Positions 37,608 through 61,165 of a stretch of 64,000 bases of DNA are shown here, one piece after another. Made by a program: the position numbers and the translations under genes. The stretch comes from Gavia stellata (lineage: Eukaryota; Chordata; Aves; Gaviiformes; Gaviidae): NCBI RefSeq assembly GCF_030936135.1, contig NC_082603.1:26750880-26814879 (forward strand), read 5' to 3'. The notes under the pieces were generated by a model. It ran no database searches and was not told the DNA's origin. It saw only the letters and a list, made by a program, of their open reading frames with translations. The stretch's first letter is position 1. Every line of letters starts with the position of its first letter.

Positions 37608-37835
37608 CGTGCTCTTCAAACTCTCTTGTCACTAGTCTCACTAGGAATTATTTTCCTAATATCTAAGTAGAATTTCCCTTTCTGTACCTTGTGTCCATTG
37701 CCTCCCATGCACCTCCAGGAAGAGTGCGGCTCCGTTTTCTCTATAACCACCCCTTAGACTTCTCTGGCCGAACAAGCCCAGCTTCCTCCACACCTTCCAA
37801 TTTGGCAAAGTACTGCAAATTTTTCTTCTACTGCT
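37608..37835 (-). repeat. Second CR1-type LINE fragment
   Basis: The + strand carries TTTTCCTAATATCTAAGTAG, then CTTGTGTCCATTGCCTC, then GAAGAGTGCGGCTCCG and TGGCCGAACAAGCCCAGC. These match successive parts of the complemented CR1 3' region. It has the same orientation as the copy 1.4 kb upstream but covers a partly different interval, so both could derive from one old insertion later split, or from two insertions. Confidence 0.75.
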
Positions 37836-37849
37836 TCACACGCATTTGA

Positions 37850-40060
37850 GGGAGAGGGGCAAGTTGCCACAAACACTACACGGGACACCTATGCCTGAGC
37901 ATCTCCTGGCAGGTAGGGAGGGCTTTGGTAGAGGTGGCTGCAGAAATCCTACCAGCACCTGCAGTGGAGCTGAGCGAGGGACCAAGAGCTCCATTGCTGA
38001 TCCTGTTGAAACAGATGGTTAAAGCCTTTCTGCTGGAGCCATTCCCTGCTAGTGAGATCCATACAGTCCATTAAAATTAGGGATCTTATTATGGGCTATA
38101 TAAAAAAGGTAAAGAGGAAATGAGAACCTTATGAAGGGTTTCTTATGTGTGCAGATGGCAAGGGCATCTGAGGCCAAGAAAGCCTCTCCAACAGGCTTTT
38201 TCCAAACAGAACTGCTCACTTTACAGGTTTTCCCCTCTTTCAGGACTATCTTTTCTGCACAGCTCACCCATGCTGACCAGCCACACTGTCCTCAGGATGG
38301 AGAAACAGACCCTAAACATGTGTCATGCTCTCAGGAGCACAGTCTCCTCTCCTTCTAGCACCAAATTCAGCCTTCAAATGCACTTTTGTGTCATACTCGG
38401 GTCTCTCCCCAACCCAAAGGAGCTGACTGTTTGCTGAACCCCCCAGCCTAGTTGAGGACCGGTGAGAGATCCTCTGTCCATCAGTATGGAGGAGCTATTT
38501 GAGTCTATTGAGTAGCATCAGGAGCACTGAGAGCCAGCTAAAACTGGGAATTCAGCCTTCCAGCAGTGGCACTGGGCCACTGCTCTGCCTCTGTTTCAAG
38601 ACAGTAGAAACCAGGGACCTTAAATACGGGACAGACTTTGGGTCTGTAGCAGAACCAGAGACCCTTATAGTCTGGGCATCCATTTGCTGGGATGACCACC
38701 TGCTGGGACATTTATTCCCTTTCTTCTTCTGTCCCTACCTGCCGTGCGTGGCTGTGCTGTCATGTGGCAGTGCCAGAGTGGGAGAAGGTCCCAGAGCTGC
38801 TCTCTGAACCTGTAGGATCCTGTGGGACACCTTGGCCACCCCCTTGGGTCCTGCTGGGGCCCCAAAGGGACTACAGAGGCTGGAAGTGTCCCTGGAGCAT
38901 GATCCTTATTTATACAGAATTATAATCTCTCTATAGAGTTGTAGGGGAGAGATTTTTGTCCCCCTGTGCAGGCTAAGAGCTGAAGCACAGTGAAGCTAAG
39001 TGACATGATCAAGGTTGTGCAGACAACCTGTGGCAGAGCAAGAACAGCAGCCCAGTGGTGTCGTGAGCCCTTGTCACTGCTGCTTGTCACCGCTGCTTGG
39101 TGGTAGAGCTCTGGCCACCTTGCCTCCCCGGCTGCCGAGCCAGCCAGCTCACGCCTTTCTCCTTCAGACTCCTACAATAAGACTCGCAAAGGCTCGAGTG
39201 TGGTTTCGTTTTCACTAATAAATCCCTGCTTGCACTTGAAGCTGCTGTGCCTTTTAAAACATTATCCGTGGCTCTGATTACACTCCTGATGAAAGCAGGC
39301 ATGGGCCTATTAGTTTTCATGGCAAAAGGCACTGCCACGTCCTGCTATCCTTTATGCATGCAGTGTAACCCAAGTTTCACAGGAAAGGGAGGGGGCAAAA
39401 AAGGCATCTTGTAAAGGCAGTGTCTGTCTCCACCTTCACTTCAGACTGAGAACATTACACACTTGAAATCTCCCCCTACAAACAGCTTTGATTAGTCCAT
39501 GCCATTTTTTTAATACTTTTTTTAAAATTATTTTTTTATTTGCTACCAACAATTAACTCCTGCTCTGCAACTCCAACCTGATGCCTCTGCCTCTCCAGCC
39601 CCTGCAATGGGCTGCACCAAGCAGCAGTAATGGGCATGGGGTGGGGACAAGGGAAACAGGAGCTACTTAAGCAGTGATGAGCAATAGGTGCTCTGGAGTG
39701 GTGTTTCCTCTTCATGGCTCAGAGAGGAGGTGGATATTTGGGGAGCAGAGTTAAGTGTCCACAGCCAACCAGTGTGAAAAACCCACCCCATGGCAACAGG
39801 TTTGCTCTGGGTCATTAACCCAGATATGAGGATGGGAGGCACAAAGGGGTTAATGCTCTCTCGTGGGAGATGATGGGGGGAGAAGGGGAGCTCTTCCAGA
39901 ACTGCTGAGGTGAGCTTTTCAAACTCCTTCAGCTTTGTTCTGTCCCTTAGGAGATGCTTGGAGAGCTTTTTGGAAACAGTGAAACAGTTTGTAGTGAAAG
40001 CAGAGGGATGGTGCTCAAACAGGCCTGCAGGCACCAAGCACAGGGACATGCGACCATGGC
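37850..40060. other. Spacer with a MIR-like relic
   Basis: No gene is recognised. A MIR-like fragment at 38.96-39.05 kb is listed separately. A block at 39.16-39.36 kb (CACTAATAAATCCC, TTAAAACATTATCCGTGG, CTGATTACACTCC, CCTATTAGTTTTC) has the look of a conserved element, with several OTX/PITX- and homeodomain-like cores, but this was not tested. Confidence 0.45.
38962..39052 (-). repeat. MIR-like SINE fragment
   Basis: The + strand reads GCTGAAGCACAGTGAAGCTAAG, then TGACATGATCAAGGTTGTGCAGAC, then TGTGGCAGAGCAAGAA. These follow, in order and spacing, the complemented MIR core known from amniote genomes (GAGGCACAGAGAGGTTAAG, TGACTTGCCCAAGGTC, GTGGCAGAGC). It is an ancient, diverged copy. Confidence 0.65.
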
Positions 40061-40061
40061 A

Positions 40062-40225
40062 GTGAGGAAAGGAAAGGGAAATAGGGAAATAGGGAAAGGG
40101 GAAGGGAAGGGAAGAGAAGGAAAAAGAAGAGGAAAGAGAGACAGAAGGCAAAAGATAGTAAGAAACAAAAAAGAGAAAGATAAAAAGTGAAAAAAATGAG
40201 AATATGGAGGAAAGAGGGAAGAAGG
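40062..40225 (+). repeat. Purine-rich low-complexity tract
   Basis: About 160 bases consisting mostly of GGGAAA, GGAAGGGAA and AAAGAGA-type sequence with few pyrimidines. It is the strand mirror of the polypyrimidine tract at 25 kb but shorter and less pure. Confidence 0.85.
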
Positions 40226-41569
40226 CAAGGAAGCCCCTCTGCAGCTCCTGGGATGGCTGGGTGCCTGAGGGCTGTGCTCCCCCTCTCCTGCGCAGGATCA
40301 CGCACCACCACCTGTGTCCAAGCACGTTTCCTCCCCTGCAGAAGGGCTGGCTGCCCTGCCCACCCCAAAACCAAGCCTGACAGCTGTTGGAGGGGCCGGT
40401 GGCCGAGCCGCTGCTGCAGCCGGGGAAGCGTTGGCTTGGCTCGGCCGCTGCCCGCGCGGAGCAGCCGGGAGAGGGTGGCAGGTGAGCGAGGCACAGTCAT
40501 TACTACAACAGATGGGAGAGGCATGACATTACATGGCAGGGCTATTATTTACTGAGTGCTCATGTTTGTCATGGCTGAAGATGACATCTTATTAAGGAGT
40601 CATGACACTGGGGGATTTTTTTAAGCCTGGGGGCCAAGAAAGCTAATGAACAGGGATAGCTCTAGGAATAGATGGAGGGTAGTGCCGTTTTCATGTCACA
40701 GGCAAAGCTGACTAACGTTTCACCAACCCGACTTCTGGGAGATTTCCAGGCTGTGGCACATCTCCCTCCTGCTCTTTAGGGATGGACACTCCTTGCCGTG
40801 GCCTGATTGTGCTGGCTCAGGTGGAAGTGGCTGTCTCAAGAGACCCTGCTGTAAGGGAGCAAAGCCTGGGCTATGTTACCAAAAATCTCCCACCTGTACC
40901 TAATAGCTGTGAACAACCAAACACTGGTAGTCCTGCAAACAAAGGCATGTGGCAGGGAATGGCTTTTGGACAGGTTTCCCCAAATTCCACCTTGCAGGGG
41001 GTTTGGAGGAGGACTTTCAGGCAGCGCATGCAATAGTTGTGGGAGAGTGGCAAGCGGGACCCCGCCGTTGGTGTGGCACTGTCACCCCTGTCTGATGCTT
41101 ATCAGGACAGCTAGACCAAAAGTGGGGCTGCCTGGCCCATTTTGTCCCCCCTCAGCCTGCCCCGACACCATCTTCGCAAGCCTTGCCCTCCTTCGCCTGA
41201 AACAAGAGCCACATCCCTGCAGCTCCCATGCGCCAGCTCCTTATCGCTGACCCGCTCTGTCAGTGTGGATGCTTGACTAATGTTCCCTTGTAAAATGTTG
41301 TGTTAAGCACATTCCAGCCGCTGACATTAAATACTTGGGCCAGGGCAGCGCTCACCCTCTGGCGGATGGAGCGCCGAGCCAGTCCCAGCCACACGCCCGA
41401 TGCTGCTGCAGCCAAAACATTTGCTCTTTTCTGCCCCATCTCCACCTCTCCCCTGCCCTCCCTCCGGCACAGGCAGCGTGGGCAGGGTGGGAAGGAGACA
41501 GTGGGCAGGACCACGGCTATCTGGCAGATGAAATAATAATTAGCCCAGCTGCCTCCCAGCCTCCCTTGC

Positions 41570-41710
41570 ATTCCTCCGTGCTAACAGCTCGGCTTATTTT
41601 GTTTTCATCCACAAATATTGACTCACTGGGTTCTTTTCACCTCGTGCCTATTAAAAAGGCATTGCTCATAGTATTGTTATTGAATTTGTTCTGCAGCTGC
41701 AAGAAGCGTC
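41570..41710. promoter_or_regulatory. AT-rich candidate enhancer with FOX/SOX-like cores
   Basis: A unique block with GCTTATTTTGTTTTCATCC, CACAAATATTGACTCAC (FOXA-like plus AP-1 TGACTCA), CCTATTAAAAAGGC (an inverted CCT...AGG pair around TATTAAAA, MEF2-like) and GTATTGTTATTGAATTTG (SOX-like). The density is suggestive only. Confidence 0.33.
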
Positions 41711-42099
41711 CAGCGGCTTCAAGGAATTCACCTGCGCCGCTAGCATGGGTCCTGAAGGCTGTGTGCCCTCAATACCCTCAGAAACTGCTTTGCCTGCTGC
41801 TCTCCAAGAGATGGGACCTGGGGCTGGCTCAGCAAGACTGTTGCCCAACCTTTCACCAAGGGGGGCATCAGGGTGGTGCTGGGGATGAAGCTACAGAGAT
41901 GTGGTCTGCTCCTGGGGGATGCTGCTTTGCTGCTCTGTGCCTCAGTTTCCCTGTTCAGCCTTGTGATTCCTGACAATTTTTGTAATGCACAGTGAGTGTT
42001 AGTGAAAAGACATGTGATTTAACAGTCTGACCTTTTGCTGTTGTAACTTGTCCTTCTATACTCAGTTCGGGTTGAAAATGTGGGTGTTGTTTCCAGATG

Positions 42100-42200
42100 C
42101 CTTAACCTGGCTGGGGCAATAACCAGAAAAATAAACCCCGTCATTACCTCGTCCGGGTAATTAATGAGCGTGACAGCAATTGCTCACACAGCCCCAGTCC
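42100..42200. promoter_or_regulatory. Small homeodomain-site element
   Basis: A run of unique sequence with GGGCAATAACC, CCGTCATTACCTCG, CCGGGTAATTAATGAGC and GACAGCAATTGCTC. It keeps several CpGs in a CpG-poor area and has TAATTA-type cores, a pattern consistent with a constrained regulatory element. Confidence 0.33.
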
Positions 42201-45200
42201 CGAGAGTTTGGGATCGCGGTTGTGGTGGAGGGGTTGATGGCTGTCCCCCATGCAGGGGGGGGTTGGGCTGCAGGAGAGGGATGTGCAATCTCTCACTGCT
42301 TACTCCGCAGTGTTCAGCCGAGGGCAGGGGCAGCGGGACAGCAGCCTGCTCGTGAGGAAACCCCCTGTTTCGGCAGCTGTGCTCAGCTTTGGCGTCTCTC
42401 CCAGGATAAAATTGACTGGCACCACATTCCCGGGGACTCCCCTCTGTCCCCAGCCATCCCTCCAGGGGAAATCCCAGGGATGCCAGCGCTCTGACAGCGG
42501 ATCTCACCTGATTCCCAAATCCCAAGATGGGATGGGAATAGGGAATTGGGACAGGTGAGAAAGGCTGCAGTATCAGCGGGCACCCAGGGGTGGGTATCCT
42601 CATCGAAACCTCTCCCTGTTCCCTGTGAATTGTCTCAGTGCCACCTTCTCCATCAGAGGTCTGACAGACGCCCATTCCTGTGGGTGGGCTGGGGTGTGGG
42701 CAGCCTTGGGATCCTCTATGTGCACATCTCCTACGGCCTCTGGGGGAGGGAAGGAGCCAGGGCGGCAGCTCGCTGGGGTGAGGTCTGCACATATAACCAG
42801 TGACAGGGCTGCCTCTCCTCCTCCCAGCTGGTCTTGCTCATCTGCAGGACAACTGAGCAGCAAATCTACGGAAAAGGACTTTCTGTGCTGATCTGATGGA
42901 CCGCCCCTTCCCGTCCTCTGGCAGGACCCTTGGCTCAACTTCTTCACCCCTCTAACCTCCCTCCAGATGCCTTTTTAACCTCCACCAGCATGAAAAGAGC
43001 CATCAGGTGAAATCCCAGTTCGCCACCCCTGCCTACACTCCAGCGATAGCCACCAGCCAAGCGTGGGGGCTGCTGCCGGCACCGGCATTGGGCAGAGCCG
43101 TGACCCCCTTGATGGAGGGGGTCTTTCGGGAGGAGGGATGGGCTCCATGCTGGCTGCCTGCCCCTGCCTGATGAGGCCATACCTGCTGCTGCTGTGCCCT
43201 GCTCAACCCTCCCACTTGTGGGGCTGCTGCCTTGGGGACCTTCCAGTCCCTGGTGTGGGTACAGCAAAGTGTGGCAAGAGATGTTTAACCCTGCAGAGAC
43301 ACTTGGGAGCATTGCCAGGGCTCAGGACATGGTGGCGGGCTCAGTGGGAGAAGAGGTCTATGCGAAAGGGGTCAGCCGGGGCACATCGGGGACGGCCGCA
43401 AAGTCACAGGGGCAGACACAATCCCAAATGCCCCATGTCAAGGGGGTTGTCTCCTGCCTTGTGACCAGCCTGCAAAAAATAACGCTGCTCCCTCCTTCTC
43501 CCAGTGCCTGTTAGTGGAAAGCAAATGTCAGTGTTGCCATGCCCAAGTGTTTATTTTGGCAACGGCTGGGGGCCTGGCCAGCAGGCACGGGGGGACATGG
43601 GGAGCTGGATTAGCCACCCAGTGGCAGCTCCTACGCTGCCCTGTTGAGGATGCAGTGCGGCCGGCGGGCACTTTTCTTCTGGCTTCAGGCAGCACCACAT
43701 CGGTCCATTGTAAATACCGACTGGCTGCAGGGAAGGCATCACGCCGGGCCCGGGCAGCAGCCGAAACCTGGAGGAGAACAAGGACCTGCCTGTGGGTACC
43801 ACTGAACCCTGGGGTCACCCATCAGGGCACTGGTTCCGGCTGATGCCTAGGGTCATTCCAGGCATAGCAGCCCCACGTCCCTGCCGCGGGGGTGGGAAGA
43901 AATCACCGCCAAGGAGTGTCCTGTTCTCCTGACCTTTGCTCTCCAAATATTTAGGATCCCACAGTGCACAGTCACAGGCCTTGTTCGGCTTCAGCGCGAT
44001 GCCATTTGCCTCCTGTCTCAGCTGTCCTCGGTAATTCATCTCCGGCTTTCTGAGCCGGGGACGGGGAAGACACGCTTGCACCACCGGCCTCCCCCGGGGT
44101 GAGTGCAGGGACTGGAGCACCTTCCCAAGCCCTGTCTGTCCCTTGTTCCCTGGGTCCTGCCTTGTCACAGGTCCATGGTCAGCAGGGATGGCGGGGAGCA
44201 TCTGTGGGAGGGCAGTCCCCTGTCCCTGGCAGGGCACACGGTTCGCTCCCCTGTCTGCATCCCTCACACTGGTGGTGATGAGGGAGAGTCCAGGCATGGT
44301 CAGCAGACCAAATGACTTTGCATTAGGGAAGGTCCTGGGAGAGTGCGTTTGGGGAGAGATGGTGTAATAAGCAGCAGGAGAAAACTGAGGTGCCCGTGAG
44401 CCACTGGCAAGCCAGAGAAGCAACCCCAGATCCCAATGTAGCCTAGTGTTTTTTGGTTAAGGGCTTGGGCCGGTGGCCTTATGAAACTGTACTGCACATG
44501 CTGTAATTCCCAGCCTGGGCACATGGCCCTGGGCAGCATCTGCTGGGGTCTGCAAGGGGTCTGAGCTTGCTGTCAGGAGGTGGCATAAACTAAGGAGGGT
44601 GCTCTTATCTCTTGGGATGGCTGCAGTTATACAATCCCTGCTGCATGAGTTCCTAGAGGTGCCTCTGCCCCGTGGCGGCTTCGAAGAGATGCCTGGTTGG
44701 AGAGGTCTGAGTGGAGGCTGGGACCTTCAGAAGAGGATACAGGAGGAGGAACCTCATTTGGGCAAGATCACCCCCTTGGTGAAGGAAGGAGAGTGCTCAG
44801 GTGGCAAATCCTTGGGGAAATGGTACTGACTATCATTGAGCATTAGTGACCTGAGGGTGCAAAGTAAGAAGAGCACAGGAGGAGGATGCTGAAAGCAGGA
44901 GTTACATTTTGAAAGGGGCAATAGTGGCTGTTGGATTAGCTCTGCTCTGACCACATTTACAGATAATTATATACGCTAAAATCCTGGGGTTGGCCATGCT
45001 TTTGCTCCCTTTGGTTGAACATCCACTGCTTCCACAGAGGACTTTCCCATTCATACCTGACACAGTGAAAGAAGAATAAGGACTGCTGTAGTGAAGATAC
45101 CACATCAGAGTCAACGCTTTAAATGAGACAGAGCCATAGGGGATGTGTCCATCAGAGACCATTGAGCCAGAAGGCTCAGGTGGACCCTCCCATTCAGCAG

Positions 45201-45354
45201 TCCCTTTGCTGATCGTTGCCAGGAGCTGAGAATGGCAAAACCCCCAAACCGCAGCTTGCGCGGTTTTATGATGAGCTAAAAGTTTATGGTATTTCACAGG
45301 CAAATTTTTTTTAAGGTCTTTTAAAATGAGATTTTATGAAACTATATTAGCACT

Positions 45355-45435
45355 AATTAAATTTTCATTTTTTAAAAATGAAATTACAGATGATTTTTCA
45401 CTATGCTCTTTGAAAGAACTGATAGCAGTTCTTTT
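45355..45435. repeat. Two short inverted repeats in an AT-rich block
   Basis: A near-perfect palindrome AATTTTCATTTTT/AAAAATGAAATT (45360-45385) is followed 30 bases later by a perfect 6-bp stem GAACTG-ATAG-CAGTTC (45416-45431). Both lie in an AT-rich block at about 45.3-45.7 kb. They may be remnants of a small DNA transposon or chance hairpins. No terminal repeats or target duplication could be identified. Confidence 0.4.
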
Positions 45436-47900
45436 ATTGGCCTGACACTACATTTTCTTACCAAAAGCCATATTTCTGATGGTTTCCAAAAATAACAATA
45501 ATTTCAATAAAAAATACTTATGAAAAATCATAGAAAAGGTGCTGGTTTCAAAGCATGTGAAATGGGACAAAATGTGAATTTTTTTCTTTTTTTTTTTTCA
45601 GATGGATTTCTTTCTATTTCCAATCAACTTTTGATCATCCAATAACAATGTGTTTTTGAGAGAAAAGAAACCCTAAGTGACCACAGCAACACGGCTTAAA
45701 TTTTCAGCTGATGCAAGTCAACCCATCTCCACAGTGGCTGGTGCAGTGTTGCACAGAGGGAAGATTTAGCCCTGTGTCTTTATGTCGTGTCTTCACACCC
45801 CTCCATTTCCTGCTGAAAGCAGTAGCAGCACTCCTGCCTGGACCAACAGGGCTGCGACTGAACAGTGTAGAGCTAAAAACCCCGTGGAGATAGAGAGAAA
45901 ATCATGAGTAAATGAAAAATGGAAGTTGAAAGGTGAGGTTTGATGAGGGGAAGTGACTCATGGGTTGGGAATGAGGGATGGGGTCTTGGGGAGGCTCGGC
46001 AGCTCGAGCTCCAGTGACCCCCGACTGCGAGGAGTCGTGGGGAGGATGGAGGAAAGGCCAAGCATGGAGCAATGAAACGAACGGTCGAGCCCAGGGAGAG
46101 CTATGAAAACCAGGAAGACAAGCCCATGGCGGTCATGCAGAAAGTGGAGGGATATCCAGCCTTTCCAGACTGTCTGTGCTGTTTATCCTTCCCTTGGCTT
46201 TGATCGGGGGCTGTGTGAGACATGACGAGGTAGAGACCTGAGGAAACCAGTAAAGCTGATGCATCTACAGCAATGGTTTAAAGCTGCATTCAAACTCCTG
46301 ACTCCGCATCTGCTGTGCTGTGCAGGGAGAGGCAGTGGTACTTCCTAAGCCACGCTAGCATAAAGGAATGGGGTAGTATGTTTTCAATAATTTGGATGTC
46401 CTCAAATGAACTCTCTGATCTTCTCCTGCAAAAGCCACAGAAGCCAGCAAAGCCATTGTGTGTCCACAGCCAGGGCTGGGTGAGTTGGGGAAGGATGTAT
46501 GGATGCTGCAGCGGTGCACATGTACCACATTAAGCAATGCAAATGTGGGGGTGAGTCAGGGACCCAGTCCTCTTCACACCACTCTCCAGTAAATCTGTGT
46601 CTATGTGTAGTAAGGCTTGGTGTATTTGCATCTGGTTGTAAAAAAAGCTATTTGGACACCGGCTGTGCCTTAGCAAATGGTGCCTGAAATAACATGAAGA
46701 AGACGTCGTGCCTGTAAAAACGGGGCTCACGAGTTGGAGAGCTACTTGCAAAGTTGCGCAGTGGCAGCTGGAGATCAAGCTGCATGCTCACCCACTGGCA
46801 TCCTCTGCCTGCTCTAACCCTGGCTCCCCGCTGCCCGCACCCTCCTCTCCCACCTCACACAGGTGGTGGCTTCCGTGGCATCTTCACAGCTCTGAGATCA
46901 TGCAGAGTGCAAGTGCCCACAGGCATCCTTGGCTGACTCTGGCAACATTGAGCTCATACTGGCTTTGTTAGAGCCTGATTTGCATAGAAGGGAAATAATT
47001 GGCTCTAATTGACTTAGACTGGACATGGTCTTCAGAGGGACGCAATACTTACAAGGCAGTTGTTGTGAAGCAACGTGGCTTTTTCCACCATTCTAGGGAA
47101 GGGACAACATATAGATATGTATATTGGTAGTAGATAACTGTTTTTGTGGGTAGATAAAGGCTTTTGTTTAACCTCATTCTAATAAAACCAGATTTTAGCT
47201 TTCGCTATAGAACATCCATTTCTGAACATCCCAGATACACCTCTGTCACTCATGCATGGCTTTGCTGGAGTATTTCTAGGGATAAAGCAGGCTGGAGATG
47301 CTGCTTTCTCAGCAGAATGCAGCAGCTGTCTGGAAACCCTGTTGGTGCCTGAGCTGCCATGTGCCAGGACACCAAAAATATTTAATTCAGGGCATATTTC
47401 CCCAGGGTTATACAGGACAGCCTCAAGGAGGTGGAGCTGAAGGAGGCTCCTTTGATCTCTTGGTCCTTTTACCTTCATATCTGATCGTTGTTTCAGGCAA
47501 CAGAGGAGGCAGAAGCCTGTTATTGGGAACATGAAATTATTAGGTGAGATATTGCAGCATGGAGACGCTGTATTTCCCAGTTCCTAGCACAGACGCTGAA
47601 AACCACAGCTGTTAATGTCCCTTCTGGGTGGAAAGCCCCAGAAATACCACACAGAGCCTACCAAAGCCCTGGCCAGGCTTCAGCCGCCATGGAGCGGTTT
47701 CCATGCTCGCATCCAGAAGGCTTGTGGCCAACCTCAAACTCAGTTCAAACTCAGCATACGGCAGAGCTCAGCGTGGAAGGGAGAGTCAGTCAAGGTACGC
47801 TCGATGCTTCCCATCTCTTCTGATAAATCTGCAGCACTCATGAACTAAAACTGAGCTTTTGCAGACTACAGCAGGGGAATTTCTCTCCCGCTTTCCTAGG
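45436..47900. other. Spacer, nothing recognised
   Basis: Unique, mostly CpG-poor sequence. I see no gene, no interspersed repeat that I can name, and no clear regulatory cluster. Open frames are all below about 120 codons and show no domain. Confidence 0.5.
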
Positions 47901-47904
47901 CCAG

Positions 47905-48230
47905 CACTTGGATGAGGCTCGGCAGAAGTTTTAGGGTGGATTGTACTAGACATAATACCGGAGCCTTTAATTGTTGTAGGAGTTGGCTCGGACTCCTCTA
48001 TTTCTTGAACGTTGTTGAGACAAACATCCCGGCCGAGGAATCAGCCCAGGCACCCCGTAACTCGGAGGCAGTAACTTGGGCCAAGTATTGCTGTGAAGCA
48101 CTGAAGAGCGCTCCAGCATCCAGCCTGGCTTTGCCTTTAATGCAGAAGGCAGTAGGTGCCATTAATTTGGACCACGCACTTAAGGAAGATCATTTAAAGG
48201 ACCCAAACCCTGCGAAGCAGTGCTGCTATG
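47905..48230 (+). promoter_or_regulatory. Candidate constrained block upstream of isolated promoter
   Basis: The block retains many CpGs in a CpG-poor neighbourhood and is open for 134 codons from an ATG at 47912, ending just inside the downstream tandem repeats. The translation shows no domain, signal peptide or repetitive bias that I recognise. It includes CATAATACCGG, TTTAATTGTTGTAGG (SOX-like), CATTAATTTGG and GATCATTTAAAGG. I favour a conserved non-coding block serving the promoter at 48.3 kb, but a short coding exon is not excluded. Confidence 0.3.
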
Positions 48231-48307
48231 GAGCCAGGGCAGCGATGCTCCTGATGCGATCACAGCTTGGTGGCCACCCTCTGTCTGTGTGTCTTAGCCC
48301 TACCTCG

Positions 48308-48367
48308 TCACAATAGACCCCGACCCGTCACAATAGGCCCCGCCCCATCACGACAAGCCCCGCCCAC
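48308..48367 (+). repeat. Three tandem 20-bp GC-box units
   Basis: Three head-to-tail units of exactly 20 bases start at 48308, 48328 and 48348. Each begins TCAC (unit 1 and 2 TCACAATAG, unit 3 TCACGACAAG) and ends in a CCCCGMCC GC box; units 2 and 3 have the perfect Sp/KLF site CCCCGCCC. The preceding GTCA gives a CRE-half-site-like GTCAC at the first two junctions. The array ends 12 bases before a TATA box. Confidence 0.85.
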
Positions 48368-48379
48368 ACGAGCCTCTCC

Positions 48380-48387
48380 TATAAATA
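48380..48387 (+). promoter_or_regulatory. TATA box of an unassigned promoter
   Basis: TATAAATA, followed by GC, is a near-ideal TATA box placed directly after the GC-box array, the layout of a strong regulated core promoter. Transcription would begin near 48410. Splice-donor-like sequences follow (AAGGTGCGG at about 48424, GAGGTGTGT at about 48460). The gene it serves is not recognised; FOXD2 is 28 kb upstream and does not need it. Confidence 0.55.
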
Positions 48388-49312
48388 GCCCTTTATTTGC
48401 AGCAGCCTCTGCTCTGCAGCATAAGGTGCGGAGGGTGGGGAGAGCGTGGAGAGCGTGGAGGTGTGTGCCCTGCTCGGAGGGGAAGCGCAGGAAATTTAGG
48501 TTGCTGGCAAACCCTGTGCAAGTTTTTCTTCTGCTTGTCCTCTAATTAGGCAAGCAATCTTGCTGCGGTGCTTGGAAAATACTCTCTGTGATATTCACAA
48601 GCGATGGATTTGTTGATTGTAAAATTAAGGGAGGCTTTGGGATTAGGGATCCTGACCTCACATCTAGCTCTTCTGAGGCTGTGGATCCAGGCTGGTGTTT
48701 TAGCTGGAAAGTAGAAATTTTTGAGCTAGCAAGTAACAATAAATGAGCTTAATGTTGGTTTGTTATGCATCTGTTAGAAGGGTTTTAAATGTGGAGCCCT
48801 AATTGTAGAGACAGCCAGGTTAATACTGAGTAAGGGAAGCTGGCTGGAGGTTTTTTAAATTTTGTTTTGGAAAAACTTGAGTTTTTTGTGGGAGAAAAAA
48901 ATGTTTTACTTGCTTTCTGAAGCTATTTTTAATGGAATTAAAAAAAAAAAAACATGAGCTGAACTTTTTGTGTATAACTGGTATTTCCTCTTTTTCCATA
49001 CTAAAATGGTAGGGGAAAGATAAAGGAGCTGGGAGAGAAGAAAAAAAAGCAATATAAAAGATTAGCCCTTCTCCCCTAGTCTTTCTGATAAAGTAGTTAT
49101 AAAACATTTTTTAGAGAATAAATGTTGTGCCTTCTTGAAGTATATGGGATGGAAATGGTTGTATTGTGGTGGAATGAACCTTTCGCTTTTTAAAACCAAC
49201 TTTGGCAAAATATCTGTAACTTAACTGGGGGGTCTTAAATTGCATTCAACTTGTGACCTCAGAAGTCCTTCCATTACTTTCAGAAAACTCTGACATCTAT
49301 TTTTTTTTTCAG

Positions 49313-49386
49313 GTAGAGCAGTGGAGAGATGTTGCTGAAGAGACGTGCCTTTTTTTTTCTGATGATCCTCCAAACCTGCCTCTGCT
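49313..49386 (+). CDS. Possible signal-peptide exon of an unknown gene
   Basis: A T-rich tract and AG (49311-49312) form a good splice acceptor. An ATG at 49329 opens 19 codons reading MLLKRRAFFFLMILQTCLC, with a basic start, a hydrophobic core and a small/Cys-rich end, which is the form of a secretory signal peptide. A perfect GTAAGT donor follows at 49387 in phase 1, the usual phase after signal-peptide exons. It lies about 0.9 kb downstream of the promoter at 48.3 kb on the same strand. I do not recognise the protein. The T9 run encoding FFF and the short length mean chance is possible. Confidence 0.35.
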
Positions 49387-50014
49387 GTAAGTCAATGACA
49401 AAATAACTGTAGTCTGGATAAAGCTTTTAGTGCTAAACATGAAAAAATAAGCAATGGGAATGGGGCTAATTTGTCTCTCCCTTGGAGAAGGAAGACTCTT
49501 GTGGCACAGTTGCCATAGTGTCAGCCAGATCTGATTTGCAAATGAAGGGTCTGCAACTCTTGCATGAACCTATTGCTGCTTCAAGAGTTCATCCCATAAT
49601 TTTCTCTGTGCTTTTGTCTGCTTTATTGCTCAGGGGTATGGCCAGGTGCCAGTAATATGACAGCAAGGGGTGAGCACTGCCAGCAGATCCATTTTGGGCT
49701 TAGTTATGAGTATCCCAGGTGAAAAGTGTTAGCTAACAAAAATCTGCTTGAAGTGTCAACCTCCATCTCCAGGTGGAGGCTCTATCTGGGATGTCATTAG
49801 AGAAAGGGAAGAACCTGCCCTGGATTCTTCTACTCATTTGCAAGATTGGCTGCAGCTTTTAAGCCATCATTACCAGGGCTGTCCGTGTTCCACATTCCCA
49901 CTAGAATTGCTTTAGGAAGATGTTAGTGAGTGACAGAATTGAATGATTGGTGGCTGGGGGGAGAGGAACATCTTGGACAGCTTGTGATGGGTCTCTGTTT
50001 TGTCTTCTGCCCAG

Positions 50015-50096
50015 GTTCCCTGGGGTGCCAGCAGCTGGGATCAGTGGTCAAACAGGACAGCAGTGCCTGGCTGTAAACTTGCACCTGGATTGCAAG
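50015..50096 (+). CDS. Possible second exon of the same unknown gene
   Basis: A TCTGTTTTGTCTTCTGCCCAG acceptor tract and an AAG/GTAAGG donor bound 82 bases. Joined to the phase-1 donor at 49386, the first acceptor gives about 20 further residues (CSLGCQQLG...) and a stop at 50074-50076, a 39-residue product. Using a CAGCAG acceptor 17-20 bases further in instead keeps the frame open to the donor (GISGQTGQQCLAVNLHLDCK). Neither product is recognised. It could equally be a non-coding exon or chance splice sites. Confidence 0.22.
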
Positions 50097-50099
50097 GTA

Positions 50100-53000
50100 A
50101 GGACACAGAGGCATGTTTTATTCCAAAGGCAGAGAAGAAGCTATGCCAGGCAGTCAGCTTGTCCTTCTGGCCTTATGTGCCTCCATATGTCATGGGCTCA
50201 CAGGTGAGAAATACTTACTATTCTTGGAGCGCTAAGTCTAAATGTGAAGCTGATTTGTTGTCATATATTTATTGATATTGCTTTACTGTACCCATGTGGA
50301 GCTTATCACAACTTTACCCTGTTCATATCTGTCCCCAGTTGTCCTGTGGTGTTTCACAGATTCATTCTGGTTAAGTTCTTTGTGATGCTGCTTAGGGTTA
50401 ACTTTGTCCCTGTCTGATGAACAGGGCTCCTCTTCTAGGTTTGAGGACTGAGATGTGACATGGATGGCAGTTACTTTTATTTATATTGTCAAAGGGAGGG
50501 TTAAAAAATTGTTTTGATGTATGTTTTGTATTCAAAAGGAAATCATATCGGAATGTGGATTTTTTGCTGCAAAGAAATGTGATTTTTGTCTTGTTAAATT
50601 GTGTGGACCTTCAGAAAGTTACCAAATGCTGTTTTTAAAGATAAAGGACTGGATGTATTTGTGTTGTCTGCTAAATTGTCCCATGTAGTAATGCAGGCTG
50701 GTGGGACAGCAGAAGGTCACCTGCAGAATCTGAGGTTTCATGGCAAACAAACCTACTGAGCAACATATGTGGGTCTTCGATTTGCTTGCAATGGTCCAGG
50801 GTGGGAGAAGTTTCAGTAGTATGTGAAACTGCTTTTGAAGTCTGATTCTTCTGTTTTTCTTTTCCAGCCATGTTGTTTTAGGACAGGTGGGGTGATTTAC
50901 TACAGGTGTTTCTCAGGGGGTGGTGAATGAGCTGTGAAGGAGATCAGGTGTAGCTGGGAGTGTAACCAAATACTAATTCAACAAACCAGGTCTTTTGGCT
51001 CTGTGAAACCATGTTGAAAATATTTTTTTCCTCATGGGGAAGGATGTGCTTGCAGCATCTGGGATTTCTGGGAATTCCTCCTTCTGGATGGGCTTAACCA
51101 CAAGTAGAATAGAAGTTGTGCTCATCTAATATGCCTGTCCATTCAGCTCCAGCCAGAGACTTCACCAGGTGATCCTCACATCTGGCACAAAGTCCTGGGG
51201 CTGAGCAGTGTCTAATGGCACAGAAAGAAAATCAATTTCAAACTGAAGCTACTAAATGTTGGGGAATGCATGTGCTCCTCTTGTTAACTTCACGCTCTGC
51301 TGAGATTTCCTAGCATATTCTCACTCTGCTGTTTGTCCAAATCTCTGGATGACGCATTGGGCATTTTGTTTGAGAACAAATGGAGATGTGTCAGTGGGAC
51401 CCAAGCAGGTCTGGAAGGACTTTGGGGTTGACTTTTTTCTGGGTGATTGGTCTCCTTGGCTGTGAGGTTCAAGACAGCAATCTGTTCAGCTTTAGGTCCA
51501 ATCTTTAGACGGATTTTGGGGATAATTTAGGCCTGTGTAGTATCTTATTCTATATGTAAAATAGGCATTTATTCCTTGTAAACAAGTTTTATATCAGTAC
51601 AGAGACAGTAATCCTAACAAATCCCTTTTCCTTTAGTTAGCAATTAAAATACAGATTAGAATCCTCACTTGACTGGGTGAAAAACTTTCTGCAGATACTT
51701 CTTGACCCTGCTTTATGTCCTGGTGTCTGTTACCCATCTTTGGCACAATCAAAGCACTTCAGTACAGCAGCTGAAACCAGATTCTCTAAAATGTTGGAGT
51801 GGTATGTTTGACCTGGTGTTAATTATACGTGTCAGTGATATTTAAGTGGTAGAGAGAGTGGAGATGTGCCAAAGGTTGAAGTTTGCTGGGCCAAGATTCA
51901 GTAGCAAAACAGGACATGGCTTTTACAAAGAGAATCCCAGTTTCTGGCAACATCAGTTCCAGATCCTGGAAGCCAGAGCCCACAAAAATGGGTACTACTC
52001 AAGTTTAGTTTGCTTTGATGCAGAAGGCAGGATTAGATCTGGTATTATGGGGGCTGGGGAGGGGCTGAGCACCTGATGCCCTTGTTTTTGGAGCAGAAGA
52101 GCTGAGATGTTGCCTTGTACTCAGGCAGGATGTCTTCTGTTGGGAATGAGACCAGCTGTTTCACAATCTCTTGACCAGCTCTTTGGCATGTGAGCTCCAG
52201 AGTTGTATCCTGGAAATATGCAGCTTAAATGGCAAGGCTGTTTCTGACCCATTTCATGAAATGTAAGAAAATTCTGCTTTAAAGGAAAACAAGGCTTTCC
52301 TAAGCAATTTCATTTTGCATGCGTGCTTGTCTAAAATGTTGTTTTTCAGCAATGTGCACAAGGTGCATCTGTTTCTGAGCTGTTTGTGGTGTTTAGCTGG
52401 CTGTATTTCCATGTTTGTGGGACAGTTGATCTGTCTTTGTTTCCTTTGTCTTGAGGGACATAAACTAGGCTTGCTTTCTTTTTCTCCTTTGTTTCTGCCC
52501 CCTCCCCACCCAATTCACTGCAGTTTTATTTTTTAAGTTCAGTAAAGACTGGTCAAGGGGTAGAAAAAGTGCAAGAATGGGCTCAACATCTTTAGGGGGA
52601 ATGGAGAAATCAACAGAATCATTGCATCAGTGTCTTTAGTGTTAGCTCACAAGCATAAGATTATAAAGTTAAATATTTTCATCTCAAAGATGAAATTGAT
52701 ATGACTTTGTTAGTATGTGGACTGCTACCACCAGGAGAAAATGTATTAATCTATCTTCTTGGGGCAGGGGGAAGAAAAATAAAGGCTGGATGCCAGACCT
52801 ACATTCAAAGTAGAATTACAACACACATCTCTTTTTTTTTTTTTTTTTTAAATAGTGAGGAGCAAGCTGCAAAGAGAAATGGTAGAATCTTCATCTTTGG
52901 TCTTAATCAGTATGAGTGTTATTTTTGATGTCCTGGCCTCTTGGAAGTTACCGGGCTCAATGGAGGAGTAACTGGGTTAAGTTCTGTTCTGGGTGTTACT

Positions 53001-56000
53001 TTGGAGGGTCTTACCTGCCCCTTCACATCTCTGAAATGCAGCACACAAACCAGGAGACTTTACAGTAACACGTCATGTGGGACATGTTCCTGTAGTGTCT
53101 GGCCTAATAATCTGCATGTGTTATCAACTCAAAAACAGATCAGGGAAATAACAGGCCCTCATTCAAGGCTGTACCTGTCTGGAAAAAGTGAATTTGCAGT
53201 TGCTGGGGCCAATACCAATTTATGTATGAGGGTCTCTCCCTGCTGGAGTGATGGCAGGGTTGAAACCAAGCTGGGTTAAAGTTGGCTGCAGTGGGGTTAC
53301 AGTTTGGAGCTTCTTGGGTTTCCTTTTAGAGTCTCTAAGATTTTTGTCTTCATTCTGTAGGCTATTCACATCTTATTTTGCAAGTCAGTAATGAAGCTTT
53401 CAAGAAAAGGTGTATCGGGAGAAGGAACATGCTGTACAACCCTGGTTCTTGCATTATTTCCGATTCTTCTGTGGTCCTGTGGCAACTGTTGGCCAACAGG
53501 TAGTACTTTGTAGCTGCTCCAGTGTCAAAGCTGGCTTACAGAATGAGCTGGACCTTTCATTTGGCTTACTTTTGGTTTCAGTGGGGTAGATGTTTACCCT
53601 GTGTTTGCTCTGCACCCTATGTATAGCTTAAAGTTCTCCTAGATGCCTTACGACCACAAGTTCCTCCTGAAAAAATGGAACAGGATACCTTTTTGGCTGC
53701 CTTTAAACCATGGAAATTTTGCTGAGATTTTCTGTGAAAGGGGAACAATACAGCCTCAACAGAGAAGTTAATTATAGCAATGGAAATTTTTCTTAAAGGC
53801 TTTCTGACGTGAGGCTGGTATTGCTTTTCAGCAGGATAGAAGTCTCAGAAATGTCACTTTTAATGAAAAATGTTTTAATGGCAAATACTTTCCACAGTGT
53901 AATGGTTATTCTTGGGTTTGTCTGAAGCCTATTGAACCTCTGTATTTCTTTGTGGAGTTATATGTAACATGTTTGGCTCTGACTTTTCACTCTTGCTCAA
54001 CTGCAGTCCTGGTCTAGGTGAGGTAGACGCTGGGGAAGTCATGGGAACTGAATATGATAATTGTGCAACTGTTTTTCAATGTTGTAATCAGACTGTGATT
54101 TGTATTGAACTGCTGTACAAAGAAAGACAGTTCTGAACCTTGGACTGGTGGATATTTGTTTTTGCTATTCTGGCCCCTCTGAAATCATAGGCCTTATTCT
54201 CATCTCTATCTTAAACTCCATCCAGCTTGAGCAGTTACTGATATATCTGGGTTTAAATGTGGGAGAATTCTCCTAAGAATTGATCCTGTAGGCTGATTGT
54301 CAAGGCAGGACTGCCTTGGATGTCAGCAACAGGTATCATCTCATACAGATACAATCCTAAAGCAGGGTTCTGGCAACAGAACAGAATTTTACTCTGTAAT
54401 GATGATTTTTTGAGGAGGAGAAGGCAGAAATTTTCATATAGCTGAGATCCCATCTGTTCTTATCCTGTTCCATCTCTGGACAGTCTGAACTGTGCTTCAT
54501 TTTCTGAGTTTGTGGTGCCAGACCTGCTGAGTTCCCCCACTTCTCTGGAAATATCTGCAACTATGATTGAGGACGGCTTATGCTAGCTGGGAAGGTGTGA
54601 AGCAAGTGGCCAGGCTGGGTCATGGTATCAGGTTGCCACTGGCACTAATAAAAGGACTGATAATTTAGTCATGGTTTTGAATACTGAAGCAACTTCTATG
54701 GCCTTAATAATACAGAGAGGAGGAGGGGAAGGGAGTGGAGAAGGGACTGGCCACAAATAAATTCACCTGTAAATCTGTAAAATAAAAAGAAGCAAGAGCT
54801 TTGTAGGTCACTATGGTCTTCTCTCTGGATCCTATGGAGTGGTACAGTCAGAATTTAGATACCGTGGCCAGAGCTGATACAACTCCTCCAGCACCACGCT
54901 CTGCCCCGGCAGGCACCTGCCTTTGCTACACCACAGATAATAAAGTTGTGGGACTCTGCAGTTTAATGGCATTGAGTTCACCACTGGTGAGGGTGTTAAG
55001 GGCTGTCCTCTTCCTTCTGAGCATGTTAATGGCTAGACATGTGTGTGAGACACCTGGGGTTTTGGTGGCCTGTGGCTTCTACTTCCAATGCTACTTTTCC
55101 ATGTTAAGTAGTCACTCTTGGATCCAAAATAAAACATTAGCCCTAGTATTAGAGTTCAGCACTTCTCAGATCACAGGACAAAATCTGGTCCCTGCTTGCT
55201 TTTCTCTTTTAGGCCCTGTAAATGTAGTGTGGTAATACGGTCTGAGGGAACCCTTCATCTTTGGAGGGCGTGAATGGAGAGCACAGGCTGCAGTCCCCCC
55301 TGGCTGTGCTGTTCCCCAGGTAGGGTGCTTGCCACCAGGTGACTGTTCAAGGTCTTTGGGATGCCTCCCTTTCTGCTGAGCTTTGGAAGAAAGGAGATAG
55401 GTATCTGTGCCCAAATAAATGATAAGTTTTTTACTGCAGGAACAAATTCAGGGTGAATCCCAGTTTCTGAAGCACTAGTGGAAGCCTGTTGTGTAGGGGC
55501 CTCTGTTTATTGCCTGAACAGTAATATACTCAGCAATATGAATTACAGAGCCTTCTCTAGCACCCATAAATCTTGGAGGAGAATCAGTCTTCAACCATGT
55601 ACCCACCCAGGCTAATACTGTTTCTTGCAGCTGGAATTAATCATGGCATTAGGCAAACAACAGGGGTTCATTAGGACCAAAGGTGACTTTAATTTAATTG
55701 AAATATAACTTGGCAAGTAAAGAGGTGATCCAGTTCACAACACCTAATGGGAGGTCTGGGTTATATATGGAAAAGTTAATGGCCGTAAAAATATCCAAAC
55801 AACATATTTGTGCACGTGTTCCAGTAAAAGTCCGAGCCAACTACTTTTTAATGGTTTGGGTTTTCAAATGTATATATTAATGTTCTTAAAACAAGAATGA
55901 GACTATATGAGCACACACAGCATAGAAATATGAGGCGGGTGGGGGTGTGAGGGAGGGGAGCCTCATGGTCAGGACAGCATTGGTGGAAGCCACGTTCCTC

Positions 56001-59000
56001 CTTGTGTTTGAGGAGGCTGCTAAACCTCTTCATTCCCTAGAGCATGTGTCTGTGTAATGGATATGGCAGCTTTGCCCTTATAGGTTGAGGAATAATGGTT
56101 CTTATCTGTTTCTTGTGGTATTTTGAGTAAAGGTGCTATACAAATGTACCTGAAAAGGATGTTTTGGGTTTTTGGCAGTTTCATGTACTTTGGTTTCATA
56201 AAATTACATGAGCCCATGAAATAAATGAAAAGCCCTCAAATGATGATATTGGCATTCCCTTGTGAATGACCACCCACAGCCCTCAAAATAATAATATATA
56301 AATATTAATTAAATCAGGCAGCCTGTAAATCAGTGCAGCAACCCAGCCTTTTTAACCTTTCCTCGCTCTTGTAGAACAGGTCCAGCCATTTCTGCATAAA
56401 CACTGCCTTGTAAATGGACTCCTACATAAAATATTATTTATATTTTAGTAGGTAAACATATGACAGTATGCACACATCAGTGGGCTGTGACATCATAGGA
56501 CCAGCCTGCAGAGTATGTAGCTTTATACCTATTTTATTCTCCAGGCTGTTTTTTGTAGAGAAGGGGCAATCTACATTTTCACGGGGATGCAATCTCTATA
56601 TCCAGTGGTGAATGTGAATCTGTATTTTGAAACAGACTGTTGGAAACAAAACTAAAAACCCACAGATTTTTCCCTTCCCGCTGTTTTTTTTTCCTTCTAA
56701 ATTTCTTGTGCACCTTGATGAAAGGGCTCGTCTGATGGGCCATGATGGAACATCATCTTGTAATTGACTTCACGGGGAACTGGCCAGTGCTGGTAGTGTG
56801 ATGCCAACATTGTGAAAGCTTGTGGGATGCTTGATTCTGCAGTGGTTGGATCAAGAAAAGTAGGTGAAAGAGTCTTAAAAGATGGTGAGTTAAGAGTGCA
56901 TAATGGAAGAATGTTTATGCATGGGAAGTAAAGAAAAAAGTGGAGGGGGGGAAGAAAAAGCAAGGTAGAGGACAGGGAAGAGAAAAGGGTCATGCAGGAG
57001 ACTCAGGACATCTTAGCTGAATGGCTTGCTTGCTGTTATCACTTTGAGCAGGTCACTTAGGATGCCTCTGTGCTGAAAGAGGGACTGTTACAAGGTGCTT
57101 GGAGAGCATGCTAGCAGGCGCTGAGTAGGAATACATCTCTTGAGGGCTTGGCTGAGATTGCCATATGGTTTTGCTTAGACAGTACGTCTTGGGGCCTGCT
57201 CTGCCTTTCGGTGGCCTGTGTGCCTGTTTCTCATTTCAGCAGTTTCTCTGGTTTTATCTCCATGTCCTTTGGGTTTTGGACCACTGGGGAGGAGACAGTC
57301 TTTTCAGCAGCTGACTTGAGCCTTCAGCAGGGCTCACCTTGTAGTTGAGCTGGCTTTAAGCATTTCCTTTTCAGTAAAGCAGCTGTCTCAGAAGCTTTGT
57401 GAAACCCACAGTTTGGGAGGAGGAAAAGAAAAATGAGATAAAGTGGCAAATGAAAAACTGCTGCCGCAGACAGGCGGTGGTGGACTTCCAAGCCCCAAGG
57501 GGAGGAGTGTGATTGAATGTTAATAGTGAACCCCTTTCATTAGCTCTATAGCAGATGAGAGATAAGAGCAGAAATGACTGCCAATCTCTGGTTTTAGCAC
57601 GGAAATGTGTCTGCCAGACACCACCTCCCTGTGCTGGAGCTGTCTCCAAAGGGATCTCCCCAAAAGGGGGAGCTTTTAGCCCACCATATGGCGTGTCCCC
57701 AACTGGCTGGCCTGTTTCACTGTGGTGGAGACCCTGTTGGACAGAATGCATGTCTTGCACCTTGCAGTTACCCCCTGAAACTCAGCCATACCTTCTGCTA
57801 TGTGGGAAATGAGGTGTGAAAGTAGCCACACTTCACTGAGAAAGTCATGGCTTGAGTTGCTTCTTATCAGAGCCTTGCCACCCCCTAAGACTTGGAAAAT
57901 TTTCCCCCAGAGGAGGTCACTTGCCTTTTGTTATTGCAGGGAAAGAAGCACAGGGGGGTGAATGATTCTGAGGTCCCTGTAGGGGCTGGCAGGAGATCCC
58001 AATCTGACAGCTCTGCCCACAACTCCTCTCCTCCTACTGACATCTGCTAATATCCCTGCCTGTATGGTGCCTTAAAAGGCCAAAATGCCAAAAGATGTGT
58101 GTTTGTCTTTAACTGGTGATGGCATATTTGACCTTCCCCAGCACTTTTGACACCTGTTGTCTTGACTAGTTTTGCATGTGTGACCCTGCATCTGTGAATC
58201 AGCCCTAAAGGACTTGGCTTTAGATAGGTTTCACTTGGTGTGTGGAAGCATGATATTGTCACCTTTACTGGCCAGACTCCAGCCTGGCATTGCCCATGCC
58301 GGCTCTGGCCCTTGTACCCTCTGCCAGCTGATGCCTGGCATAGCCCCCCTGTGCAGCATGCTGACCCCATACTCCCTTCATGCCTGTTGTATAGCAAAGG
58401 GGTGCAAGCAGAATAGCTGACGTGCACAAAAACCTCTGTGGTGGGTGTATTTGCTCAGCACTGAGGTGGCCTGATGTTGGCTTGGTGCCCTTCAGCTTGG
58501 CCAAGAAACCAGGCAGACTGAAAGTGAGCCAGCTGGTCCTCTTTAGAAATTTCCTTGGAAGAAATCTAGGTTGGGCTCAGCCCTACTGCCCTCCACCAGA
58601 GCTCCTCGGTGCCTCGCACCGAAAGCATGGCTCTCTTCTCCACCACCTCTCTGACTCCCTGCAGGCTCCTGGGCTAAACCGCTGTGGCTTTTCCTGCTCC
58701 ATGGGGCCCAGGAGTCTGCGAGAGGCACCGTAGCCACAGGCAGGGATGGGGTGGGGAGTGGGTTGAACAAGATGCTGGGATGACAAATGCACCCTGGCTT
58801 CTCCATCGCTTCACCATCAGCCTTCTCCCAAGGTTGGATGTGACTATTGTTGAAAGTTTGTTTCTGTCCAAACCTGGGGGCTTTCTGGGGACACTTAAGG
58901 GTGTTGAGCTCAAGCCCAAGCTCTTGCTCACATGCTGGGGACTGAACATGTTTCTCCTAACCCCTCCCTTGCTCCCCAGCTTGGACTTGCTGGTTGCTGT

Positions 59001-59089
59001 GCAAAGCCAGAAGCGTGGGCAAAATCCAAGGAGTTGATGGGGCTCAACTTGCTCTTGTGGGCTTCTGTGCAAAGAAGTATTTGTCAGAA
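50100..59089. other. CpG-poor spacer, no convincing gene
   Basis: Unique, CpG-poor sequence. Splice-bounded stretches can be found, for example 53361-53499 between a CTGTAG acceptor and a CAG/GTAGTA donor, open in one frame, and an open frame of 140 codons at 54813-55235. None has a recognisable domain or links into a gene model. A T18 run at 52832-52849 may be a retroposon tail on the minus strand. TRABD2B, the gene after FOXD2 in human, is not visible. Confidence 0.5.
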
Positions 59090-59420
59090 GGTAAATGAGG
59101 TAACTAGTTCCTAATTAGTCTGCACAAAGGGTCTAATGCTATAAATGTGAAGTGAGCACCATAAATCCAGCCTGTAGCTTGCTGCGTGGTAATTTCCCCG
59201 CACAGACAAGCCTCAAGTCACAATTCATTACGGCTCTCTTCGTAGACCCTCCGATGTTGTGCTTCCCCTTTGCTGAGGGCAGATTGTCAAGCTGTGACCC
59301 TGCCTTAGTTAATTAACCTTCAAATGGGATTTATTTTCCCTTAGTTACTTGTGCATGCACACATTTGGTAATAATGACTGTCCGCTTCCCTTGTATTTGC
59401 TAAAAGGGGAATAAGTAATT
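59090..59420. promoter_or_regulatory. Candidate conserved element with HNF1-like palindrome
   Basis: A unique block with TCCTAATTAGTC, CACAATTCATTACGGC, the perfect palindrome GTTAATTAAC (59308-59317; a close match to the HNF1 site apart from the missing central base), TTTGGTAATAATGAC and CTTCAAATGGG. The motif set and composition contrast resemble deeply conserved enhancers. Conservation was not tested. Confidence 0.35.
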
Positions 59421-61020
59421 TGTTACAGTGTTTTACCAGGGGTAAAAAAATAAAATAAAAAAAAAAGCCAGGCCTCAACTTTCATGGAAAATTGATAGCT
59501 TTATGCCAGAAAGAGACAGTTCCATCACAGCCACTTCTTCAGCTGTCTGCAAATATTTGAAACCCTGAGATATTTAATGTTTTTCAGATGGCGATAAATC
59601 TGCAATAGTGTGGGCTCGCTTGAGCTTAGTGAGAGATGAAGTGAGATAGGAGAAAACGCATGAGCCAGCACGGGAGAGGTATTGCTGGTCACACTTCTGC
59701 CGATGTCAGGACAGGTTTTCAGGACCTTGCGCATACCAGCTGGCTTCTCTTCGCCAGGGAGAAATATACACAAACGCAAGCTTCCAGTTCATTTCCCATC
59801 CAGTTGTGAGCTAAATGTTTGCTTTTTTTGCCTTCTCCCCCTCCTTTTTTTATTATTTTTGCAATCTGACATTAAAAATATGAACCTACAGCTGGGGAAG
59901 GAGAGATGTCGCTGGCTGAAAGCTTTTTTTTTGCATCTGGCAAGCCTGAGACATTGCTCGGGGTTTGTTTGTTTAACCTTTTGTTTGCTGTGCAGAACCT
60001 CAGTGGCAAGTTGCAGAATGTGGTTTGGTTGCAGAGGTGTTGGTGTTTTGCTTTTCTTTTTTTTTTAAAAGGAGGAAAAATAGTCGCATCATCTCCATGT
60101 GCTTTGCTAGTCACATTGTCTCTGTCTGGGGTAAGCCTTGGATATCTTTCCCCATTACTCTGATGCACCTGATGTGCCCTGGGGTTGGTCCGCAGGGAGA
60201 GGCATGGGTCTGGGGGGAAGGCTGTGGGGTTGGCAGGGACCTCCAGGTGTGTTGGGCAGGAATGAAGTCTCACCTGCAGCACATGCATCACCTGGACAGG
60301 GATGAGTGCTGAGAAGGGGCAGGAGGGGTTTCTGTGTGGCTTTCAAGACACTCAGGCTGTGCATGTCTTGCAAGCAGAGCAGCAAGGTGACCAGCTGGGG
60401 AAATGTGGCCCAGCTGGGGGGGGGGCAAGGTGCAGATGCTCAACTGAGTAAATTGGCACCATCCTGCTGAAATACGGATGGTGAGCTGCAGAAAAGCCCG
60501 GTAGCACTGGAACAGGAGAGGACCTGAATGTTTTCTGATTTATTTTCCTTTGCAAGTAAGGAGTCAAATAGTTATGGCAGAAAATGCTGTTTTATTTGTT
60601 GGGAGGAATCAAAGAGCAGTCTGGTTCTCCGGACACCAGCACCTTTCATGCCAAGCGGAGGTGCTGTGAGCAGTGCTAGCGGGGTTGTGTGTGGCTGTGA
60701 GCCCCTGCCTGGGGTGGCAGAGGGCCGGGACTGTATCTTGGTTTGGGTTTCTTGCTTTCAGGCTGCCATGGCTAAATTGAATTCCCCCACCACAGCTGTG
60801 ATTCACTGATGGTTTTTGTCCAAGTGTCTGTTTATGAAGTTTTAAAGAGACAGAAACACCTCAGCAATTTGATTTTGGCAAACAGCTGTGAGCCAAGTGT
60901 GGAACAACAACAAAAAAAATCCCTGTAAAAATCAGGGAAAATGCCTGCAAATTTCCACACATTTCACAGAGGCGGTGTGGTCTCAGAGGCAGCAGGGTGG
61001 TCTGGATGTTTTAGCACTGG
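59421..61020. other. Spacer, nothing recognised
   Basis: Unique sequence with several short A and T runs (for example near 59447-59466, 59925 and 60058-60068). No gene or named repeat is recognised. Confidence 0.5.
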
Positions 61021-61024
61021 TGTA

Positions 61025-61165
61025 GAAAACAGGCGCTCCTGTGCTCGAATGCCAGCTCTGCCACTGATGTGCCGCTTAGCCTTGGCGAAGGCACTTGACC
61101 TTTCCATGTCTTGGTTTCTCTCCTCTTCCCTTTCCCCCTTTTTACTTAAAAATGAGAATTGGTGG
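61025..61165 (+). repeat. MIR-like SINE
   Basis: The + strand follows the MIR consensus in order: CTCGAATGCCAGCTCTGCCACTG, then GCTTAGCCTTGGCGAAGGCACTTGACC, then TCTTGGTTTCTC and, after a pyrimidine insertion, CTTAAAAATGAGAAT. In MIR these are CGAATCCCGGCTCTGCCACT, TGACCTTGGGCAAGTTACTTAACC, CCTCAGTTTCCTC and TGTAAAATGGGAAT. It is an old copy in the opposite orientation to the one at 39 kb. Confidence 0.7.

Follow-up and report, generated by a model that had tools for sequence, protein, structure and literature searches.

The early promoter of SV40 carries 21-bp repeats, and transcription usually starts ∼30 bp below a TATA box. The promoters of long non-coding RNAs (lncRNAs) less commonly have a consensus TATA box. 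Transcription can also leave its mark in base composition: one account of the human genome describes an excess of G over C and of T over A on the non-template strand after transcription (PMC10030826), and a report on vertebrate genes, whose species set may lack birds, describes TA skew as positive throughout the gene, with GC and TA skews climbing at the 5′ end (PMC2927911). An orphan promoter could be judged without expression data, by asking whether strand asymmetry steps up at the predicted start.

We analysed a promoter-like block in a stretch of 64,000 nucleotides of a vertebrate chromosome (the window). Our favoured reading, which we hold with moderate confidence, is that a TATA/GC-box RNA polymerase II promoter opens a germ-line-active + strand unit of at least ∼15 kb, most likely a spliced lncRNA. 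As to the parts of this reading, a + strand transcription unit likely starts at ∼48.4 kb and runs for at least ∼15 kb, it is probably active in the germ line, and its product is best read as an uncharacterised lncRNA or as a gene with most of its coding sequence outside the window. Because an apparent promoter and a transcription imprint occur together with no clear sign of a protein, the start of a non-coding RNA is the most likely interpretation. Under this model, 48306-48410 would be a core promoter of the TATA type for RNA polymerase II, whose Sp1-type GC boxes (two complete, one degenerate) are set at a 20-bp pitch on one helix face; it would drive rightward transcription over at least ∼15 kb in the germ line, the first exon closing at 48425 or 48460 and further exons lying perhaps at 49313-49386 and 50015-50096.

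A domain scan placed one forkhead gene at 2 kb and another at 19 kb of the window, which we take to be FOXE3 and FOXD2, and the promoter-like block lies ∼30 kb past the FOXD2-like gene. In human, presumably, no gene lies in this orientation between FOXD2 and TRABD2B. Literature searches on FOXD2 with TRABD2B, FOXE3, lncRNA and bird TATA promoters returned nothing on the locus among the titles and starts of abstracts listed; one human association study (PMC8093242) names either FOXD2 or TRABD2B in its abstract. A CR1 tail motif, which could have marked the lineage, was absent at up to 3 mismatches. Elsewhere in the window, ∼500 bp at 25040-25551 are C+T-rich on the + strand and contain numerous overlapping tandem-repeat rows.

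Tandem-repeat search and motif scan identified three degenerate 20-bp tandem units on the + strand (48306-48325, 48326-48345 and 48346-48365), followed by a TATA box (TATAAATA, 48380-48387) with a start site predicted at ∼48410. The initial annotation had described three exact 20-base units, each with a GC box. We rejected exact repetition on comparing the units: across 48306-48365 with period 20, units 2 and 3 are 90% and 70% identical to unit 1, and in the register beginning at TCAC the three unit pairs match at 17, 13 and 15 of 20 positions. The GC box CCCCGCCC is indeed present in units 2 and 3 (at 48338 and 48358), but unit 1 (48306-48325) has CCCCGACC in its place. Units 1 and 2 both contain GTCACAATAG; in the same two units CGTCA is presumably a CRE half-site and ACAATAG is taken here as SOX-like, and it is a matter of speculation that these motifs could direct expression to testis or embryo. 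The TATA box stands where it had been annotated, 12 bases past the array in the TCAC register (14 bases in the register with units from 48306). Since the last GC box begins 22 bp before TATAAATA does, the GC boxes and the TATA box follow one another at a pitch of 20-22 bp, a layout in which Sp1 and TBP would be the expected ligands. Just below the predicted start, at 48439-48460, we also observed 2.4 copies of a 9-bp unit, GGAGAGCGT, with 100% matches.

The combination of motifs is rare. We defined the cluster as a pair of GC boxes 8-16 bases apart with TATAAA following within 5-30 bases, and with both strands counted it occurred once in the window and not at all in 12.8 Mb of simulated sequence modelled on each half of the window (6.4 Mb each). 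The pairwise match of the three-copy array (48 of 60) compares with a maximum of 37 among 200 simulated 32-kb sequences, and a score of at least 48 was reached at one other site in the window, a purine repeat at 36.85 kb. That site is a purine-rich 20-bp array (36851-36913) of 3.2 copies that are 97% alike. On its two strands together the window has 16 copies of CCCCGCCC, of which only those at 48338 and 48358 lie right of 31.8 kb, and 7 copies of TATAAATA. The MEF2 consensus CTATAAATAG, like that overlapping the TATA box, is found at 12 places in the window and for that reason has no evidential weight, so a MEF2 reading of it was dropped; neither TATAAATA alone nor the MEF2 consensus alone is evidence. 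GC boxes immediately above a consensus TATA box are thus present beyond chance. A CpG island, in the sense of extended high G+C with a CpG observed/expected ratio >0.6, was not found, with one of eight 200-bp bins above 0.6 (0.63 in the bin starting at 48200, and at most 0.44 in the five bins that follow).

The best new evidence, and evidence independent of the promoter motifs, is a step in strand asymmetry at this position. From 48410 to 64000, the + strand has an excess of G over C and of T over A, which we interpret as the imprint of a transcription unit running off the window. The summed skew, (G-C)+(T-A), was positive in all 16 1-kb bins from 48001 to 64000 (mean 0.178), compared with 14 of the 18 bins that cover 30001-48000 (mean 0.046). 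The change point of the combined skew fell at 48424 in all six ranges analysed, which overlap each other, and block permutation gave p-values of 0.0005-0.0025 (four block sizes from 300 to 1500 bases, three ranges). Among 52,000 positions, the biggest 6-kb skew contrast was at 48418. A posterior for the step, whose over-dispersion was estimated with the split set at 48410, had its median at 48408 and 66% of its mass no more than 250 bp from 48410, as opposed to 1.8% if uniform. Excision of the C-rich array and core moved the step to 48220-48282, excision of 48250-48650 moved it to 48671 and excision of 48000-49400 moved it to 47908, with p-values of 0.001 to 0.033 overall. Because the step persists beside the excised array, it is not produced by the promoter's own letters alone. 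The sign of the skew fits transcription on the + strand, which would be the maker of the asymmetry.

Downstream of the predicted start, a non-coding first exon on the + strand would span 48410-48460, ending at the donor AAG/GTGCGG (GT at 48426, score 3.80) or GAG/GTGTGT (GT at 48461, score 4.64). The acceptor, ATG and 19 leader-like codons that the initial annotation had placed ∼0.9 kb downstream are all there, in a candidate leader exon of 74 nt (49313-49386, + strand) with a strong acceptor at 49312/49313, an ATG at 49329, the 19 codons MLLKRRAFFFLMILQTCLC and a mediocre donor, GTAAGT at 49387. That donor had been called perfect, which is true of its intron side, but as a whole GCT/GTAAGT scores 1.85, a value that 5% of the 3129 + strand GTs scored across the window equal or exceed. 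Two more candidate exons follow on the + strand: one of 82 nt (50015-50096), whose donor AAG/GTAAGG scores 7.26, the best of 48.4-50.3 kb, and a weaker one of 85 nt (49634-49718), which would keep the leader frame open through the next exon.

These candidates suggest a second explanation, namely that the same promoter serves a gene whose product is secreted or sits in the membrane, with its leader in 49313-49386 and its mature protein coded from 49634-49718, 50015-50096 and further exons, or mainly beyond 64 kb. We regard this as possible but doubtful. On both strands the window has just one leader-like ATG exon that combines a strong acceptor with GTRAG, compared with 0.05 per 16 kb in 60 simulations, a figure that is flattering because the search criteria were set after the exon had been seen. 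Joined in the order leader, 49634-49718 and 50015-50096, the exons leave 75 codons open and end in phase, with an N-x-T site directly after the leader; this open chain speaks for a protein, and such a chain might also arise by chance. In addition, the asymmetry has no clear end before 64 kb, so exons past the window are possible. Against a protein, the leader donor is only in the top 5%, the leader codons contain a run of nine T, and the leader spliced straight to the best-spliced exon, 50015-50096, meets a TAA at 50074-50076. Codon scores in the leader frame are negative in both downstream candidates (-4.0 for 49634-49718 and -2.0 for 50015-50096).

Searches for coding signal likewise weigh against a protein gene. 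We used a home-made chain scorer with splice and codon tables of human type and with junction stops unchecked. At an intron penalty of 8, the best + strand chain scored 12.9, compared with 13.1 on the minus strand and 17.5, 17.1 and 15.5 in other control stretches; free simulations at this penalty had a mean of 10.4 (sd 4.3) and a maximum of 23.0. At a penalty of 10, the best + strand chain scored 10.9, above two of the four controls and level with one (9.1, 14.6, 9.9 and 10.9). A chain forced to use the leader scored 7.6, with a stop at a junction, against a simulated maximum of 7.9, the maximum being the only usable figure because many runs gave no chain and their mean is meaningless. Since these scores lie within those of controls and simulations, there is no clear coding signal within the window.

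Homology searches gave a similar picture. Pfam returned no families for + frames of 48.3-64 kb and minus frames of 46-64 kb at E-values up to 1, nor for + frames of 49.6-50.1 kb at E-values up to 10, and the three + frames of 49-64 kb had no PDB relatives at E-values up to 0.1, so that a recognisable domain or relative for a signal-peptide gene was not found within the window. In a control scan, the forkhead domain was recovered in two of four frames, one per forkhead gene, together with one weak sub-threshold match. No Rfam family reached gathering score anywhere in the window. A known gene at the locus was rejected because the frames and stretches scanned had no Pfam, Rfam or PDB match. A sequence-pattern scan gave no hits in viral contigs and 45 stretches in genome contigs, all bacterial by title and taken as chance. 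The proposal of a real regulated gene therefore divides: motif statistics and the skew step at 48.42 kb uphold its promoter, but the signal-peptide gene drawn from it lacks a Pfam or PDB relative and a clear coding signal, and its frame meets a stop in the best next exon, although the chain through 49634-49718 is open.

A third explanation is that the motif cluster is chance or decayed sequence and that the step has another source, for example a zone of replication initiation or a boundary in base composition. G+C declines across 43-50 kb, being 0.58 at 43-45 kb and 0.44 at 48-50 kb, which indicates a compositional boundary near the step. The two skews also differ in where they change: GC skew alone put the step at 44270 in four of six ranges, at 39626 in one and at 48424 in one, and TA skew alone put it at 48494 in five ranges and at 26688 in one. 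The location of the combined step is broad by some measures, with a bootstrap 95% interval of about -3.6 to +3.2 kb (∼7 kb wide) and a posterior 5-95% range of 46257-48979; restricted to 42-56 kb with 48000-49400 excised, the p-value was 0.033. With 48000-49400 excised, the top 6-kb contrast of the window moved to 20098, and the 4-kb contrast was greater at 20341, beside the FOXD2-like gene, than at ∼48.4 kb. This second step, at ∼20.1-20.3 kb, is a hint that + strand genes do register in the measure, but it lies near the 3′ end of the FOXD2-like gene, not its start. Within 20100-26000, the summed skew stayed high, at 0.16 to 0.24 in the four bins of 20001-24000, then 0.08 and 0.19 in the two that follow; an extended 3′ end, read-through or an additional + strand transcript might account for it.

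A change of skew sign is expected at a replication origin. At 48.4 kb there is no such change; the 6 kb to the left are near zero (GC skew 0.039, TA skew -0.012), compared with 0.153 and 0.104 in the 6 kb to the right and 0.097 and 0.082 across 15 kb. The step also coincides with a cluster that was absent from the simulated sequence. Skews do serve to locate replication origins as well, according to one report (PMC10030826), and the values here are high for transcription: GC skew over 15 kb exceeds the <0.06 given for transcript bodies in primates and rodents, and the same source describes weaker asymmetry in mammalian genes without CpG islands, the type to which this promoter would belong (PMC2927911). 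On balance, we consider it unlikely that chance or decay explains the cluster and a non-transcriptional process the step.

More ambitious than our favoured reading, and improbable in our view, would be a human-absent gene between FOXD2 and TRABD2B in this lineage that is strongly transcribed in the germ line, whose Sp1/CRE-like units, gained by duplication in tandem, tune its output through their number and whose product is a small secreted protein that belongs to no known family and opens with the chain 49329-50096. Least probable is that the TATA promoter comes from a transposon remnant, for example a solo long terminal repeat, since, although such elements can also carry short tandem repeats above a TATA box, the first AATAAA below the TATA box comes only at 48738, no transposon domain was found in + frames of 48.3-64 kb or minus frames of 46-64 kb, and a solo repeat was rejected for want of any TG..CA frame (terminal inversion of at least 4 with a target duplication of 4-6 bases; left end 47901-48305, right end 48420-49200), an absence that says little because the shuffled mean was 0.54.

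If the lncRNA reading is right, a sizeable transcription unit lies beyond FOXD2 and could be located from sequence alone; the unit itself seems an ordinary kind of thing. Its predicted promoter resembles TATA-type, non-CpG-island Sp1 promoters in having a consensus TATA box, GC boxes within ∼70 bp upstream and a low CpG observed/expected ratio, but differs from them in that its GC boxes form a 20-bp tandem array and no known gene is attached. The SV40 early promoter is alike in layout only, with GC-box units of ∼20 bp directly above a TATA box, whereas the present block lies in a vertebrate chromosome and has just two full GC boxes. Like the promoters of vertebrate intergenic lncRNAs, it lies between genes and heads a strand-asymmetric unit that has possible splice sites but no clear coding signal; it departs from what is usual in that class in having a consensus TATA box, and it is known here from its sequence.
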